Source: Acidithiobacillus caldus ATCC 51756 (GTDB taxonomy: Bacteria; Pseudomonadota; Gammaproteobacteria; Acidithiobacillales; Acidithiobacillaceae). Taken from it: DNA of 64,000 bases. The notes under the pieces were generated by a model that did no database searches, was not told the origin of the DNA, and was given only the letters and a program-made list of their open reading frames with translations. Shown in pieces: positions 46,792 to 53,108 of the stretch (position 1 is its first letter; every line of letters starts with the position of its first letter). The stretch is taken from NCBI RefSeq assembly GCF_000175575.2, contig NZ_CP005986.1, forward strand, positions 1,247,549-1,311,548, in the 5' to 3' direction. The position numbers and the translations under genes were made by a program.

Positions 46792-46857
46792 TCTCCGCGC
46801 AGTCGATAGGGTAAATCCCCACGGGTGATCCTGCTCCAGATGCGGGCTACGTCCATG

Positions 46858-47541
46858 TCAACCACAAGCACGTTGTTTCAGAATATCCATATCCAGAATG
46901 CGTAGGTGTCGGCCTTCAATGGCAATGATCCCCGCCTCCCGTAGTCGTCGCAGTACCCGGGACAGGGTTTCGGGCGTGATCCCGATGCGTCCGGCAATGG
47001 TTGCCTTCTTGGCCGGCAAGGTGACCCACCCCGGTCTGGCCTCCGCAGTCTGCCCCAACTCCAGCAAATAATTGGCCACCCGGGCGTCTGCGGACTGGAC
47101 ACTGAACTGGCGCAACTCCTTTACCAAAAAGTGTAAACGCATGCTGAGCTGGGCAAGGATGCGGCGCATGAGTTGGGGATTGGCGTCCAGGGTGGCCACC
47201 ACCGGCGCAAAAGGGATCCGCAATACCCGTACTGCCCCGCTGCAGCGCGCGCTGACTGGGTAGCGACCGCCCATGAAGGCCACCCCTTCGGCAAAGAGAT
47301 CCCCAGCCTGCATGATTTCGACGACTTTTTCCTTGCCCTCGGCACTGCTGCTGACGAGTTCCACCACGCCCGATTCGAGCCAGAAAAAGTCCGCCGCAGG
47401 GCTCTGCTCCACAAAAAGCAGCGCTCCATCCTCCCAATTCTCCATGTGGGTAGATGGCAAAAGCGCATTGAGTAACGCGGGCGGCCAGGCACTGAAAATC
47501 GGCTGTTGACGCAACCGTGCGGCCAAGTCGGAAAGTTCCAC
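46858..47541 (-). CDS. Crp/Fnr family transcriptional regulator (Dnr-like)
   Basis: 227 residues. N-terminal cyclic-nucleotide-type beta barrel (about 15-125), dimer helix, C-terminal winged helix with ATIAGRIGITPETLSRVLRR as recognition helix; the Glu and Arg that read the TTGA half-site in Fnr/Dnr proteins are present. The four Fe-S cysteines of true Fnr are absent, so it is closer to the Dnr/NnrR NO-sensing type. GTG 47541 has GGAG about 6 bases upstream; the frame is open to 47670. Divergent from the globin gene. Confidence 0.85.
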   Translation of the reverse strand: MELSDLAARLRQQPIFSAWPPALLNALLPSTHMENWEDGALLFVEQSPAADFFWLESGVVELVSSSAEGKEKVVEIMQAGDLFAEGVAFMGGRYPVSARCSGAVRVLRIPFAPVVATLDANPQLMRRILAQLSMRLHFLVKELRQFSVQSADARVANYLLELGQTAEARPGWVTLPAKKATIAGRIGITPETLSRVLRRLREAGIIAIEGRHLRILDMDILKQRACG

Positions 47542-47607
47542 GCGGGCTCCGGAAGGTTTGCTGGATTCCGGGCCGCATTCTACACGCGCAAGGGCTGCCC
47601 CAAAAAC

Positions 47608-47621
47608 TTGACACAGATCAA
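47608..47621. promoter_or_regulatory. Fnr/Dnr-type binding site between regulator and globin
   Basis: TTGACACAGATCAA is a perfect TTGA-N6-TCAA box. It is centred 83.5 bases before the globin ATG. A weak -10 (CAGACT, 47644-47649) lies 32 bases from the centre, the class II geometry. Confidence 0.8.
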
Positions 47622-47697
47622 GGACGCCACCATGCCAGCGGCGCAGACTCGTTCCTGCCGTTTGCGGCAAGGCTAGGCAGCATTACAGGAGCGAACT

Positions 47698-48162
47698 ATG
47701 ACCATCGACATCGATTTGATCAAAAGCAGCGGTAAGGCCGTACAGGATCTGGGGGTGCAGGTCGCCCAGCACTTTTACGACACCATGTTCAGCCACTACC
47801 CGGAAGTCCGCAAGATGTTCCCCGGCGACATGAGCGAACAACGGGTTCGTTTGTTCCATTCCGTCATTCTCATCGCCAGCAACATCGACAATACCGATAT
47901 GCTGGTTCCCTACCTCAAGGAGTTGGGGGTGGGACACATCCGCTACGATACCCGTCCTGAGCACTATCCCATCGTCGGCAAAAGTCTGCTGCTGACCCTC
48001 AAGCACTTCTTGGGACCGGCTTGGACGACGGCCATGGCGGAATCCTGGATCGAAGCCTATAACCTTGCCTCGACCATCTGCATCCAGGCGGCCGCCGAGG
48101 CCATGGCCCCGGAGCGTTACGTGCCCCTGGTCCTGGACGATGTTCCCCCGGTCACGCAGTGA
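47698..48162 (+). CDS. Single-domain bacterial haemoglobin (Vitreoscilla/flavohaemoglobin type)
   Basis: 154 residues. Globin fold with FYDTMFSHYPEVRKMF and proximal His near residue 89 in RPEHYPIVGKSLL, the flavohaemoglobin/VHb signature. It lacks the reductase half of Hmp; the next gene encodes a flavin reductase. Likely roles: NO dioxygenation or O2 handling. An ACAGGAG site precedes the ATG, and the upstream Fnr-type box suggests control by the divergent regulator. Confidence 0.93.
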   Translation: MTIDIDLIKSSGKAVQDLGVQVAQHFYDTMFSHYPEVRKMFPGDMSEQRVRLFHSVILIASNIDNTDMLVPYLKELGVGHIRYDTRPEHYPIVGKSLLLTLKHFLGPAWTTAMAESWIEAYNLASTICIQAAAEAMAPERYVPLVLDDVPPVTQ

Positions 48163-48185
48163 GCCCTCCCGCGTAAATCGGATGC

Positions 48186-48209
48186 GCTGGGTCCAGCCAC
48201 GGGCCCAGC
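48186..48209 (+). other. Hairpin between globin and reductase genes
   Basis: GCTGGGTCC and GGGCCCAGC form nine pairs with one wobble and a 6-base loop. No U-run follows, so it could tune relative expression rather than end transcription. Confidence 0.5.
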
Positions 48210-48231
48210 CCTAAAAACCCAGGAGTTTTTC

Positions 48232-49218
48232 ATGGAACATGAGGTCATTCTGGAGCCGTCCGGGCACCGTCTGCAGGTGCGGGAAGATCAATGCATCGTC
48301 GAGGCCGCCCTGGAGCAGGGCGTGGCCATCCACCACGGCTGCGGCAACGGCTCCTGCGGCGACTGCAAAGGACGGATCCTCAGCGGCGAGGGTGTGCAAC
48401 TCCCGTTCATGCCGCTTCTGCTCACGCCGGAAGAGCGCGTCCATAAGCAGGCCATCCTTTGTAAACTCCAACCCCGCAGCGCCATGCGCATCGAAGCACA
48501 GGTGGATGGTGCTACCGAGCTGTGGACCGGGACGGTGATTTCCCTCCAGCGTCTGGCCAACACGGTAATGGAACTACGTTTGCGCTGCGATCGCCCCTAT
48601 CCCTTTCGCGCCGGCCAATACGCACGGATCGCGGTCCCTGGTCAGGCAGGGCAATGGCGCTCCTACTCCATGGCCAGCCTCCCCGACGAAGGCGAATTGG
48701 TCTTCCACATCCGTGCCGTGCCCAATGGGGCTTTCTCCGGATGGCTTTTCGAGCAGGCGCGGGTGGGGGATAGTCTCCAACTGGGTCCTGCTCAAGGGGA
48801 ATTCATGCTCCAGAGGGATACGGAGCGGCCCTTGCTGTTGGTGGCCGCAGGCACGGGCCTGGCCCCCATCGAGGCTATCCTCAGGGAACGACGGCAACGG
48901 TCGTGGACGGCTCCCGTCTTCCTCTATTTCGGTACCCGACGCGTGGAAGATCTTTATCACCTGGACTATCTTCAGGAGCTGGCCATTTCCTGGCCCGATC
49001 TCCATCTGGAGGTCTGCTGCTCCGATCCCGCTTTTTCTGGTTTCGCCGGACCCCGGCGTCTTTTGCCCAGCGTAGCTGAGCGTGGTCCATGGTCCGAACA
49101 CGAGGTCTATCTCTGCGGCAGCCCCGGCATGATCGAAGCCGCGGTGGACCTTCTACTCTCCCACGGCGTTTCCCATGAGCACATCCATTTTGACAGTTTT
49201 GCCCCCAGTGCCGGCTGA
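48232..49218 (+). CDS. [2Fe-2S]/FAD/NAD(P)H oxidoreductase
   Basis: 328 residues. N-terminal plant-type ferredoxin domain with HHGCGNGSCGDCKGRI and a fourth Cys in ILCKLQP; FAD domain with RSYSMAS; NAD(P)H domain with LVAAGTGLAPIEAIL and CGSPGMIEA. The family includes phenol hydroxylase, CDP-glucoseen and NO-related reductases. It starts 69 bases after the globin gene, with AGGAG 6 bases before the ATG. Together they could act as a two-polypeptide flavohaemoglobin; this is inference. Confidence 0.88.
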   Translation: MEHEVILEPSGHRLQVREDQCIVEAALEQGVAIHHGCGNGSCGDCKGRILSGEGVQLPFMPLLLTPEERVHKQAILCKLQPRSAMRIEAQVDGATELWTGTVISLQRLANTVMELRLRCDRPYPFRAGQYARIAVPGQAGQWRSYSMASLPDEGELVFHIRAVPNGAFSGWLFEQARVGDSLQLGPAQGEFMLQRDTERPLLLVAAGTGLAPIEAILRERRQRSWTAPVFLYFGTRRVEDLYHLDYLQELAISWPDLHLEVCCSDPAFSGFAGPRRLLPSVAERGPWSEHEVYLCGSPGMIEAAVDLLLSHGVSHEHIHFDSFAPSAG

Positions 49219-49279
49219 AATCTCAGGCGATATATGTCAAAGTGCCTGACCTTCAGTGTATGTGCGGTTCCGACTCGTC

Positions 49280-50218
49280 ATGGGTTATTTCGCTCTTCGT
49301 CCCCATCCACCCTTCCGCCTGGACCTCACGGTTTGGGGATTGCGCCGTCAGGCCCACAATGCGATGGACGTCTGGGAGCAGGACGCCTACCTACGTACCT
49401 GGAACTATGGAGAGACACGGCTGGCCCTGCGCTTGTGGCAAACCCGAGGTGTGGAGGAGCCCATGCTCGAGGGAGAAATTTACGCAGGCCCCGATGACGA
49501 CCGTGCCATCGCCTGGGTGTGCGAACGCCTGCAGTGGATTCTCGGCCTCGATCGTGACCTGACCCCCTGGTATGTCTTCGCGGCCGAGGACCCGCGCCTG
49601 GCGAGCCTCCGCGAGCGTTACCGAGGATTTCGCCCGCCGCGCTTTGACTCCCTCTATGAGGGACTCATCAATGCCGTCGCCTGCCAACAGGTGAGCCTGC
49701 AGGTAGGCATCCTCTTGCTCAATCGCTTGTGTCGGGTCTGCGAAGGGGATAGTGGGGGCCTAAATCAAACCCTTCTTTTTCCAACCCCCCAGCAACTTTT
49801 GGAGCAAGAGCCGGAGTTATTGCGAAGCCTGGGCTTCAGCCGGCAAAAAGTGCGGGGCTTACGCGCCGTGGCGGAGGCCGCCCGCGCTGGCGATTTGGAC
49901 GAAAGGGCGTGGCAAGGAATGCCCACAGAAGCGATCCGGGACCGATTGACGCAGATTCCCGGAATTGGACGCTGGTCGGCGGAATATGTGCTTCTACGGG
50001 CCTTGGGCCGCCTCGATGTATTTCCCGGCGACGATGTAGGCGGACGCAAGGGTCTCCTACGCTGGCTCGGCGAAGACCCTGAAGGTGCAGGCTATGAGGA
50101 AACACTCAGATACTTAGCGCCTTGGTCGCCCTTCGCTGGTATGATCTACTTGCTCATGCTCCTGCGCCGACTCGAGGCCGGCAACCACATCCAGCCTAAG
50201 GAGTCCTTCACCCGCTAA
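49280..50218 (+). CDS. alkA: DNA-3-methyladenine glycosylase II (AlkA type)
   Basis: 312 residues. HhH-GPD fold: LTQIPGIGRWSAEYVLLRA and catalytic Asp near residue 252 in FPGDDVG. The N-terminal domain begins FALRPHPPFRLD and aligns with AlkA's. Upstream GTGs at 49256/49262 are possible; none has a good ribosome site. It removes alkylated bases. It may share transcription with the globin-reductase pair. Confidence 0.85.
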   Translation: MGYFALRPHPPFRLDLTVWGLRRQAHNAMDVWEQDAYLRTWNYGETRLALRLWQTRGVEEPMLEGEIYAGPDDDRAIAWVCERLQWILGLDRDLTPWYVFAAEDPRLASLRERYRGFRPPRFDSLYEGLINAVACQQVSLQVGILLLNRLCRVCEGDSGGLNQTLLFPTPQQLLEQEPELLRSLGFSRQKVRGLRAVAEAARAGDLDERAWQGMPTEAIRDRLTQIPGIGRWSAEYVLLRALGRLDVFPGDDVGGRKGLLRWLGEDPEGAGYEETLRYLAPWSPFAGMIYLLMLLRRLEAGNHIQPKESFTR

Positions 50219-50751
50219 ACCCCACCGGGTGAGGAGCTCGCCATGCGACGCCGCTGCATGGCGGTGCCCAATTCCCTGGCCGTCTCTGGGTCGAGCAAGG
50301 CCTCGGCCAACGGAAAAATCTCCGTGTTCTCGCAAAGCAGGTGCGCCCGATTGCTGGACAGAAAAGGCTCCAGGCGTAGGGGACAAACTACACCCTTAGT
50401 CAGTACATGGCGCAAATCGCAGGCAAGGTCGTACCAGTTTTGCTCTAGCTCCGTATGTTGATGGCGCAAACGCTGCAGCGTGCTGCGCAAAGCAGCCGAC
50501 AAACCGGGGTGAGCGAGCAACCAGGGAAAGAGCGTGGCCTCTTCGTCCATGTGGTGGGCCGGAGCGGCCTCGTCGAAGTAGCGCAGCACACGCATGGCTG
50601 CCTGCGCAAAATCCGCATCTGCGCCATGCTGCTCCAGGTGGGTGGGGAGACGTTCCAGCGTAAGCGCATGCCGCAGCATTTTTTCGTGGCAGGCACGCAG
50701 GAGCCCAATGGGGTCATGGAAGGATGGCGCTGGTGCAGGAAAAAAATCCAT
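50215..50751 (-). CDS. Hemerythrin-like (HHE) domain protein
   Basis: 178 residues, all-helical. Candidate di-iron ligands: His in ACHEKM, HHMDEE, RHQHTELE and ENTEIFPLAEALL. Such proteins bind O2 or repair Fe-S centres (YtfE/ScdA-like) under NO stress, though the N-terminal ScdA domain is missing. It converges with alkA, overlapping 4 bases. AGGAAC precedes the ATG. An Fnr-type box lies 61 bases upstream. Confidence 0.85.
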   Translation of the reverse strand: MDFFPAPAPSFHDPIGLLRACHEKMLRHALTLERLPTHLEQHGADADFAQAAMRVLRYFDEAAPAHHMDEEATLFPWLLAHPGLSAALRSTLQRLRHQHTELEQNWYDLACDLRHVLTKGVVCPLRLEPFLSSNRAHLLCENTEIFPLAEALLDPETARELGTAMQRRRMASSSPGGV

Positions 50752-50811
50752 GATGACAAGTTCCTATGGTACAGGGACGGTGCAGGATTGCAGACGACGA
50801 CAGGACCGTCC

Positions 50812-50825
50812 TTGACCCGCGTCAA
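50812..50825. promoter_or_regulatory. Second Fnr/Dnr-type binding site, upstream of the hemerythrin gene
   Basis: TTGACCCGCGTCAA is again a perfect TTGA-N6-TCAA. It is centred 67 bases before the hemerythrin ATG. On the minus strand AATCCT (50789-50784) lies 32 bases from the centre, fitting a class II promoter. Confidence 0.75.
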
Positions 50826-50873
50826 GACCGTGGCGCGATCGCGAAGCCACTGCGTAACCGGGCGCAGTGTGGC

Positions 50874-51236
50874 TCACGGCGCCGGCAAACTGCGCAGGAA
50901 ATCCGCCAGAACCAGTGCCCCATTGTGCGCCGTATCGTGGGCGGCGTAGAGCAGGAGCAGGGTATCCCCTTTGAACTGAGAGGTGAGGGCCGATACTGCC
51001 TCGGGGTGCGCCTGCAGTTCCGCTAGATACCGTTCGCGAAACTCGACCCAGCGTTCCGGATCGTGGTGAAACCACTGTCGTAACTTCGTTGATGGTGCGA
51101 GATCCTTGGTCCAATAATCCAGCGCCAGATCGGTTTTGCGCAGACCCCGGGGCCACAAGCGCTCGACCAAAACCCGATAGCCTTCGGGAAAAGGACGATC
51201 GTAGACTCGCCAAGGACGAATTTCCCGGCCACCCAT
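50874..51236 (-). CDS. DUF488 family protein
   Basis: 120 residues. Family features: RVLVERLWPRGL near residue 20, DLAPSTKLRQWFHHDP, and LLLLYAAHDTAHN near the end. GGGAGAGA lies 8 bases upstream of ATG 51236; the frame is open farther. Function unknown; E. coli YeaO is a relative. It precedes the hemerythrin gene on the same strand. Confidence 0.8.
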   Translation of the reverse strand: MGGREIRPWRVYDRPFPEGYRVLVERLWPRGLRKTDLALDYWTKDLAPSTKLRQWFHHDPERWVEFRERYLAELQAHPEAVSALTSQFKGDTLLLLYAAHDTAHNGALVLADFLRSLPAP

Positions 51237-51460: not shown

Positions 51461-53020
51461 TCATGGCTCCACCAGTTCCGCAATGGCCGTTTGCTCCGCG
51501 ACACTCTCCGTGCTCCTTTCCCTGGGCACTCGAGCAAGGATACTCCAGAGCGCAAGGACCAGAAAAATCCAGGCGGCAAGATAAAAAATCTCATTGAAAG
51601 CAAGCATGGCTGCGTGTTGGCGTATGGACTCCGCGAGGATACCGGGCAAATGCGCAAAGTGGCGCTGGGCAGTATTCCAGAAACTCAGATTACTGCCCCG
51701 AACCTCCACCAGAAAATGGCGGTGGAGGTCCAAGCGGCGTTCCCACAGAGCCGCCACCAACGGAATTCCCATGGCCTGACCGGTGCTGCGCAGAAGATTC
51801 AGCGTTAGGGCTGCGCGTTGTTCTGCGGGTCCGGAAAGTCCCCACAGACCAATGCGTGCCCAGGAGCCAAAGGCCCCGCCAAGACCCAAACCCACCAGCA
51901 TGGGTGGCTCGGCGATACTGCTTGGTGAAACCGGCAGGTCGTAACTGCAGAGCCAGAAGGCACCTGCGGCCAGAAGGAGCAGAGACGCCACGGCCAGGGG
52001 GCGCGGGTCGAATCGCCCAAGGTACCAGTGGGTGAAGGTGGCGCCGACAGGCGCAAAAATGGCCAGGCTCAGAAGTATCTCACCGATAGCGCGGGCACTG
52101 TAGCCAAAGCTCAACTGATACTGAACAATGAGCAAGGCCAAGGTACCCTGGAACACCAAGGCGGTCACAAAAATCCCGATGGCCGCCACCCGAAAATTGG
52201 CGTAGCGAAAACTTCCCAGATCCACTGCAGGCAAGCGCTGTCGGCGTAGCCACCAAATTGCTGTCAGGCCCAAGACCAGCGTGAGGGCGGCAAGCAGGCG
52301 AATCTCCGATGCACGCCACCAGTCGTCCTTGCTGCCAAGGTTGCAGAGCATTTCCAGACTCAGCAGGCTCGCTACCAAGAGGGCGTAGCCCAGCCAATCC
52401 ATGGACGCCGGCTCCCCTTTGGCCGCGGGCGGTTCCCACAGCCAGATCCCGAGAAAGCTCAGGAGCAGTACCGGTAAATTGAGTGTGAACAGCCAGCGCC
52501 AGCCCCAGCTATCCACGATCCAGCCACCCAAAAATGGCCCGAGGGCAAAGGGCGTAATGGCGGCCAAGCCCCACAGGAACAAGCCGAAGCTACGGGCATC
52601 GCTGTGGTAGTGGCGGAGGAGGATGTTGAGGGAAAGGGGGATGCTCAGGCCGCCCGCAAGACCGGCGACGATTCGAGCGGCCAGAAACGGCAGGTAATCT
52701 CGGGTGGTGGCACTTACGAATGAGGCGAGGAAGATGGTTGCCAGGCAAAAAAGCAGCCCGTTGCGGTCACCATGACGTTGGCTGACCCAGCGTCCAAGGG
52801 GCAGACCCAAACCCAGAGCCAAAAAGTAGAGATCTTGGCTCCAATCGCCATAAAGGGGATTGCGTCCCAACGAACCAATGATACGTGGGATCATGGGTAG
52901 ATAGGCGCCGCCATTGAACAGTACCAGAAAATGTTCGAGGCCAATGGCCACGTTCAGGGCCAAAAAGCGATCTGGAGCAGAGTGTATGCCGGCTAGCCGC
53001 CGACGATAGAGGAAACGCAC
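51461..53020 (-). CDS. MFS multidrug efflux-type permease (DHA2-like)
   Basis: About 519 residues with 12 to 14 membrane helices. Motif A-like LGRWVSQRHGDRNGLLF, and motif C-like FALGPFLGGWIVDSWGWRWLF between helices 5 and 6, mark a drug/H+ antiporter. No membrane-fusion partner is adjacent. GTG 53020 or TTG 53080 could be the start; neither has a strong ribosome binding site. Confidence 0.8.
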   Translation of the reverse strand: MRFLYRRRLAGIHSAPDRFLALNVAIGLEHFLVLFNGGAYLPMIPRIIGSLGRNPLYGDWSQDLYFLALGLGLPLGRWVSQRHGDRNGLLFCLATIFLASFVSATTRDYLPFLAARIVAGLAGGLSIPLSLNILLRHYHSDARSFGLFLWGLAAITPFALGPFLGGWIVDSWGWRWLFTLNLPVLLLSFLGIWLWEPPAAKGEPASMDWLGYALLVASLLSLEMLCNLGSKDDWWRASEIRLLAALTLVLGLTAIWWLRRQRLPAVDLGSFRYANFRVAAIGIFVTALVFQGTLALLIVQYQLSFGYSARAIGEILLSLAIFAPVGATFTHWYLGRFDPRPLAVASLLLLAAGAFWLCSYDLPVSPSSIAEPPMLVGLGLGGAFGSWARIGLWGLSGPAEQRAALTLNLLRSTGQAMGIPLVAALWERRLDLHRHFLVEVRGSNLSFWNTAQRHFAHLPGILAESIRQHAAMLAFNEIFYLAAWIFLVLALWSILARVPRERSTESVAEQTAIAELVEP

Positions 53021-53065
53021 GTTTTGCCGCCGGGAGAAAAACAATGCTCGAAGCCTAGCAAAGGG

Positions 53066-53108
53066 GTGCCTTAGGCACAATAAACGGAGTGAACGAGATG
53101 CTCGTTCA
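53066..53108. promoter_or_regulatory. Two palindromes upstream of the MFS gene
   Basis: GTGCC-TTA-GGCAC (53066-53078) and TGAACGAG-ATG-CTCGTTCA (53090-53108). The second is a perfect 19-base palindrome of TetR/MarR operator type. A weak minus-strand promoter (TTGTGC, 17 bases, TAGGCT) overlaps the first. Confidence 0.55.

Follow-up and report, generated by a model that had tools for sequence, protein, structure and literature searches.

Acidithiobacillus caldus ATCC 51756 carries, within the 64,000-base stretch analyzed here (the window; G000:C1:1247549-1311548 of a genome of 2,987,045 bases in 4 contigs), a gene for a DNR-like transcription factor of the Crp/Fnr type next to genes for a single-domain globin and a reductase. 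A perfect FNR/DNR-type box lies in the globin promoter, and this promoter-and-gene arrangement, with its own linked regulator, is a real, family-wide feature. As the best reading of these sequences, we consider it moderately probable that the arrangement is a DNR-type, probably nitric oxide (NO)-responsive class II switch for a two-protein NO dioxygenase; NO is the likely signal.

The family sample comprised 29 genomes of the Acidithiobacillus-type family, A. caldus included, which are cited by handle where needed. Genes were scored as present at E values of at most 1e-10 (globin), 1e-60 (reductase), and 1e-20 (regulator). The search returned 36 globin copies at 74% identity or more, plus two weak ones, in 26 of the 29 genomes. 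The weak globins (34 to 35% identity, in G007 and G002) were not counted, nor was the promoter of the L117 globin, whose start lies beyond a contig end, leaving 35 promoters with upstream DNA. The globin promoters of L066 and L067 duplicate each other, and G021 and G022 hold near-identical copies; these are not independent. What can be read directly from sequence is the set of parts, the architecture of the promoter and how far it is conserved, and the co-occurrence of the genes.

Box and hexamer in the globin promoter

The globin promoter box (TTGACACAGATCAA; 47608 to 47621, plus strand) is followed by a −10-like hexamer, CAGACT (47644 to 47649, plus strand), whose center lies 32 bases from the box center. 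The preliminary description had reported perfect TTGA-N6-TCAA boxes here and before a hemerythrin gene (50812 to 50825), each with a hexamer at the same 32-base offset. Both boxes are indeed perfect, and the offset is correct when measured from box center to hexamer center, for CAGACT as well as for AATCCT in the hemerythrin promoter. Taken alone, each hexamer is a poor match to TATAAT. In class II FNR/CRP promoters, the activator box is centered about 32 bases upstream of the center of the −10 hexamer. This spacing was found in all 35 globin promoters, with transcription starts that are predicted.

The box was perfect in every one of the 35 family promoters, and nAnnnT followed at +36 from the box start (A at +37, T at +41) in all of them. 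Among 18 non-redundant promoters (those less than 75% identical outside the box), TTGA and TCAA were invariant, and the next three bases, G-G-A, occurred at frequencies of 0.94, 1.00, and 1.00. The hexamer, 36 to 41 bases from the box start, had an invariant second A and sixth T and a fifth C at 0.83. Some inner box columns and a few bases immediately upstream were fairly conserved; most other flanking columns carried little information.

Three perfect sites lie in the window, where 0.72 would be expected, and 3 of 100 shuffles had at least 3. The site count in the window is by itself weak evidence; conservation is strong evidence. The third site (3387) has neither the GG nor the hexamer. Across the whole A. 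caldus genome there were 30 perfect sites, compared with 10 in a backwards control, and the remaining sites lay mostly within open reading frames, as judged by position among mechanically called frames. To score specificity, every perfect site of this genome was read in both directions (58 orientations in other loci plus 2 for the 3387 site, 60 in all). Box, GG, and nAnnnT at +36 coincided in exactly 4 of the 60: at the window globin, at a duplicate globin, at the window hemerythrin, and at a hemerythrin gene near the duplicate, whose hexamer (CATCGT) is weak. Because the pattern was defined on globin promoters, the two globin hits arise by construction, and only the two hemerythrin hits are independent.

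In four loci of relatives, the box and hexamer stood at the same offset before a small CPxC thioredoxin-like gene (L099:4821-5164, L113:10582-10925, L110:13000-13342, and L117:5848-6157). The L099 and L113 promoters are nearly identical and thus not independent, and an L094 row, an artifact at a locus end, was not counted. In a family-wide search for box plus GG, 28 of 29 genomes had more sites than the reversed control. The sites listed ran from G002 to part of G015, and the regulon claim is confined to A. caldus.

Outside the family, a sample of the phylum gave a globin match at an E value of at most 1e-20 in 15 of 398 genomes, A. caldus among them. Within about 1.5 kb on each side of the 14 other globin loci, the regulator query found no match and the reductase query found one, in a fused Hmp (L146). 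These loci had a single perfect box, in L148, at a distance of about 0.9 kb from a globin. Named genomes supplied 30 globin loci, 21 from Acidithiobacillus, 3 from Proteobacteria, and 6 from Nitrospirae metagenome-assembled genomes. In the Nitrospirae loci (L060 to L065; globins of 55 to 58% identity), a TGAT-N4-ATCA palindrome was seen about 115 to 135 bases before the globin start; the reductase query gave no match within these loci.

Globin and reductase as two proteins

The globin gene (47698 to 48162, plus strand) encodes a single-domain globin of the VHb/Hmp type that matches Pfam Globin and positions 7 to 139 of the Hmp model NF009805. Its nearest solved relative is VHb (1vhb), followed by Hmp. 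The three proteins align through the heme pocket with matching Tyr, Gln, and His columns, which we take to be B10, E7, and F8. With its heme-pocket residues kept and a reductase domain absent, it is a single-domain hemoglobin of the VHb type. The adjoining gene (48232 to 49218, plus strand) encodes a [2Fe-2S]-FAD-NAD reductase (Fer2, FAD_binding_6, and NAD_binding_1), the putative globin reductase, which aligns with Hmp positions 184 to 395 and is nearest to P450-, carbazole-, methane-monooxygenase-, and benzoate-type reductases. In Hmp, a single chain contains both the globin and the FAD/NAD domains; here they are on two separate proteins.

These results bear out the suggestion that globin and reductase together hold the parts of Hmp. 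The two genes adjoin each other in 35 of 36 copies (the L118 reductase being in two pieces); 26 genomes have both, and the remaining 3 lack both (G013, G027, and G028, of 81, 69, and 98% completeness). A search of the A. caldus genome with NF009805 gave nothing above the cut-off. In the window the globin and reductase frames coincide across 48160 to 48231 with a single TGA between them; a fusion made by read-through of this TGA was rejected, as the frame offset varies among relatives.

A DNR-like regulator without conserved FNR-type cysteines

The regulator gene (46858 to 47541, minus strand) encodes 227 amino acids from GTG 47541, with HTH_Crp_2 and cNMP_binding domains. Among solved structures, its nearest relative is DNR (3dkw; E = 2.4e-32), followed by CRP (2.2e-14) and FNR (9.8e-10), in keeping with its earlier labeling as Dnr-like. 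The claim that it lacks Fe-S cysteines likewise held: no FNR-type cysteine cluster is conserved among 22 regulator sequences (broken L093 pieces excluded), in which the sole column with Cys in at least half of the sequences has it in 12 of 22, and TpETxSR is conserved. The open frame of the window regulator extends upstream to TTG 47670, a start that would place the box within the gene, and contains cysteines upstream of GTG 47541. The GTG was preferred because relatives have usable starts near the aligned part and short extensions; it leaves 66 bases to the box. In 9 of the 22 sequences, in-frame N-terminal extensions reach at most 16 residues and are free of Cys. A general FNR or cAMP-CRP regulon was rejected as an explanation on the same two grounds, the absence of conserved cysteines from the linked regulator and its proximity to DNR. 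Another regulator may nevertheless act at the globin box.

The regulator is present in 25 of 29 genomes and missing from G013, G027, G028, and G024 (61% complete). It is often divergent from the globin in g1 and g4 genomes and often convergent, beyond DUF488, in g2 genomes. A second regulator copy in G026 (L093:8385-9013) spans two frames and looks broken.

Hemerythrin promoters and neighboring genes

The window hemerythrin gene (50215 to 50751, minus strand) encodes an HHE-domain protein (PF01814), for which a search of solved structures gave NMB1532 (2p0n) as the sole relative. Its promoter contains the perfect box TTGACGCGGGTCAA (50812 to 50825, minus strand) and the −10-like hexamer AATCCT (50784 to 50789, minus strand), which begins 36 bases from the box start, as in the globin promoter. 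Conservation of both boxes among relatives, which the preliminary description had set as a check, was seen for the globin box but only partly for this one: in the synteny table, which includes the window, 4 of 12 copies of this hemerythrin type had a perfect box (L066, L067, L088, and, via flank L150, L086), and none was found within 320 bases in the sister species G001 (L091). The L086 and L088 loci are near-identical. In L163 and L164, a box lies about 400 bases upstream of the hemerythrin gene, and the hemerythrin fragments of L159 and L161 were not counted. Near the boxed hemerythrin gene of L066, a gene at L066:15928-16548 encodes an FdxA-type ferredoxin fused to a DUF1971 cupin domain.

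All six genes of the window locus lie where they had been placed, according to Pfam and profile scans and open frames. Between the reductase and hemerythrin genes is one for an AlkA-type DNA glycosylase (49280 to 50218, plus strand; HhH-GPD, with an open frame from GTG 49256 and a score below the NF007641 cut-off). Upstream of the hemerythrin gene is one for a DUF488 protein (50874 to 51236, minus strand; PF22752/PF04343, assigned by Pfam to the inactive DUF488-N3 subclade, with an open frame to 51353). AlkA is a direct neighbor of the globin in 11 of 36 family globin loci, and DUF488 is present in 19 of 36. An EmrB-like gene of the major facilitator superfamily (MFS) occupies 51461 to 53080 of the window. 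An MFS neighbor occurs in 19 of 36 globin loci, elsewhere often only 38 to 50% alike, and in some loci it is accompanied by genes that look HlyD-like and outer-membrane-factor-like by eye.

Two copies of the regulator-globin-reductase block

Positions 46848 to 49219 of the window are repeated near 1.774 Mb of G000:C1 (L066:9205-11576) at 99.87% identity over 2372 bases, and the two alkA copies are 97.6% identical over 825 bases. Downstream of the window copy lies a hemerythrin-DUF488-MFS context that G001 also has, whereas the context of the second copy is common to G021 and G022. Similar blocks recur within other genomes with two loci each: 98.2% over 2540 bases in G026 and 97.3% over 2506 bases in G022. 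In G018, two loci are alike across about 10 kb. We read the short near-identical blocks as the product of homogenization (gene conversion), with recent duplication as the alternative.

A fuller cassette with a thioredoxin, a second hemerythrin, and a lipoyl protein

A fuller version of the cassette includes a CPxC thioredoxin (Thioredoxin_3), a hemerythrin of a second type, and an LbpA-like lipoyl protein. In the second A. caldus copy, these three genes, the thioredoxin-like one on the opposite strand, lie between the reductase gene and alkA (L066:11612-12839); the window copy lacks the whole unit. The GcvH-fold protein was found at 75% identity or more in 33 copies from 23 of 29 genomes. The second-type hemerythrin adjoins 32 of these 33 copies, and a thioredoxin-like gene shares the locus with 30 of the 33. 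In the synteny-table loci, the second-type hemerythrin gene never had a perfect box within 320 bases. The unit is found apart from the globin locus in G004, G008, and G009 (the last a draft in many contigs), and no perfect box was found in the stretch examined at these three units.

The lipoyl protein retains the ESGKW site, and all 31 distinct sequences have a C-terminal CMRC and an N-terminal Cys. Two such cysteines, N and C terminal, distinguish LbpA from GcvH in excerpts of PMC6067878, and in lipoyl lysine and cysteines alike all 31 sequences agree with that description; the protein is called LbpA-like here rather than LbpA. The protein is 44% and 39% identical to two other GcvH-fold proteins of A. 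caldus, whose cluster encodes CCG-domain, ferredoxin-type, DsrE, and lipoate-ligase proteins, and 37% identical to the GcvH of the gcv operon. That it is a true GcvH was rejected: it falls below both GcvH cut-offs, the genome has a separate gcvT-H-P set (by eye), and the LbpA cysteines are present. A link between globin and lipoyl protein across phyla was likewise set aside. The six Nitrospirae loci have a GcvH-like match 2 to 3 kb downstream, which was discounted as evidence because the L060 match sits in an ordinary gcvT-gcvH-gcvP order (by eye).

Discussion

The reading that we favor can be stated as a series of steps. A DNR-type activator without an Fe-S cluster, with NO as its probable signal, would act at a TTGAC-N5-TCAAGGA box about 41.5 bases before the predicted transcription start. 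It would thereby activate the globin and reductase genes from class II promoters and, in A. caldus, two hemerythrin genes too. Electrons would pass from NADH through FAD and 2Fe-2S to the heme, and a two-protein NO dioxygenase would replace the fused flavohemoglobin. The hemerythrin-type diiron proteins and AlkA, together with the thioredoxin-like and lipoyl proteins of the fuller cassette, would deal with damage or residual nitrogen oxides. Binding of the regulator to the box, the NO signal, electron transfer, and the hemerythrin and AlkA roles are inferences.

At pH 1 to 3, nitrite becomes NO chemically. Bacteria of acid mines and bioleaching would thus be expected to depend on strong defenses against NO, yet the A. 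caldus genome has no match above the fused-Hmp cut-off; a two-protein NO dioxygenase controlled by a single local switch, if confirmed, would explain the defense. It would also give a possible reason for an observation in Acidithiobacillus ferrooxidans, whose globin was the most strongly raised protein in pyrite-biofilm cells (log2 6.9) in excerpts of PMC6450195. Those excerpts stress a link of that globin to O2 homeostasis and also suggest it as an NO dioxygenase. They further list AFE_0859, a pyridine nucleotide-disulfide oxidoreductase, as raised in pyrite biofilm. In L098 (G008) the gene order is globin, reductase, pyridine nucleotide-disulfide oxidoreductase, DUF488, and regulator, which fits AFE_0861 to AFE_0857 in a mapping inferred from gene order.

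Several observations weigh against the NO dioxygenase switch. Downstream of the L115 globin, the 1.1 kb examined contains no reductase. Eight of the 12 hemerythrin copies (L087, L089, L091, L093, L106, L107, L110, and L119) have no perfect box within 320 bases. Sites with box and GG occur in all 29 genomes, including G013, G027, and G028, which have no globin and where similar sites may serve other regulators. The Hmp cut-off is a strict one: of 9 control genomes where the model matched, only 2 exceeded it. In pyrite biofilm, cytochrome bd and oxidative-stress proteins were raised as well (excerpts of PMC6450195). Finally, in G018 both cytochrome bd subunit genes, followed by a reductase scrap, precede the thioredoxin-hemerythrin-lipoyl unit (L157:2067-6401), an order compatible with low O2 no less than with NO.

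In a possible, though less probable, alternative, the regulon answers low O2 or oxidative stress, the globin with the hemerythrins binds, stores, or delivers O2 in the manner of VHb instead of destroying NO, and the reductase keeps the globin ferrous. In its favor are the closeness of the globin to VHb among solved structures, the joint rise of the A. ferrooxidans globin with cytochrome bd and stress proteins, the stress on O2 homeostasis in the PMC6450195 excerpts, and the cytochrome bd genes of the one G018 locus. The regulator, however, is nearest to DNR and has no conserved FNR-type cluster cysteines, and the linked reductase, AlkA, and hemerythrins suit nitrosative chemistry at least equally.

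The cassette might instead be primarily a sulfur-redox unit, in which lipoyl protein, thioredoxin, and diiron protein take part in sulfur transfer and the globin protects it or supplies O2. We regard this as unlikely. The hallmark cysteines of LbpA and the similarity to the GcvH-fold proteins of the CCG/DsrE/lipoate-ligase cluster are consistent with it, as are the units apart from globin in G004 and G008, the latter with a DsrE-like gene about 4.5 kb away (L154). Among 10 neighboring proteins scanned in L154 and L157, however, there was no CCG/Hdr-type protein, the window copy lacks the unit, and the unit hemerythrin has no nearby box in the synteny-table loci. That box and gene order reflect chance or plain inheritance without function is highly improbable: the shuffle result for the window and the common flanks of close relatives leave some room for it, but 18 promoters that differ outside the box show no variation at the ends of the box, at the GA two bases further along, or at two positions of the hexamer, and like promoters precede hemerythrin and thioredoxin genes.

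Within the NO dioxygenase reading, the fuller cassette raises a more speculative idea. Electrons might run from the CPxC thioredoxin to the LbpA-like protein, which has a C-terminal CxxC, and on to the hemerythrin-type diiron protein, which would act as an NO, nitrosothiol, or peroxide reductase; such a chain is undescribed, and we hold it only tentatively, as rather improbable. If it exists, the lipoyl cofactor of sulfur oxidation would gain a second role in the nitrosative defense of extreme acidophiles, and the unit would make this new use of lipoate directly testable.

Comparison with known systems

Hmp (NF009805) is among the closest known systems: the A. caldus globin and FAD/NAD halves align with its own halves, and NO dioxygenase chemistry is presumed. 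It differs in being one protein where here there are two, with a plant-type 2Fe-2S domain at the reductase N terminus. VHb is the nearest solved single-domain globin; here, unlike VHb, reductase and regulator genes are linked. Excerpts of PMC1274295 and PMC3820574 describe a Legionella operon of glbN and a ferredoxin reductase that likewise pairs a separate globin and reductase with an NO-type regulator as a proposed NO dioxygenase, and globin-reductase pairs are discussed as NO dioxygenases in those of PMC3820574. The Legionella operon has a truncated globin and an NsrR repressor, whereas the locus described here has a VHb/Hmp-type globin, a DNR-like presumed class II activator, and hemerythrin, AlkA, and DUF488 genes nearby.

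In the DNR regulon, the similarity lies in the regulator and in the globin footprint, which resembles the DNR consensus CTTGATnnnnATCAAG given in excerpts of PMC1274295. According to that source DNR controls denitrification genes, whereas the full promoter pattern in A. caldus marks only globin and hemerythrin genes. LbpA of Hdr-like sulfur oxidation (excerpts of PMC6067878) shares the ESGKW lipoyl site and the N- and C-terminal cysteines; the protein described here differs in that its gene accompanies those of a hemerythrin and a thioredoxin-like protein, in many cases close to the globin gene, and in its invariant C-terminal CMRC. Among the open-licence PMC papers listed on Acidithiobacillus globin, hemerythrin, NO, and nitrosative stress, and on GcvH with hemerythrin and hemoglobin, no account of the regulon was found, although one may exist elsewhere. 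The NO dioxygenase idea for the A. ferrooxidans globin and the Legionella globin-reductase operon are already known; the parts belong to known types in an unusual arrangement, and what may be new in kind is the thioredoxin-hemerythrin-lipoyl unit.

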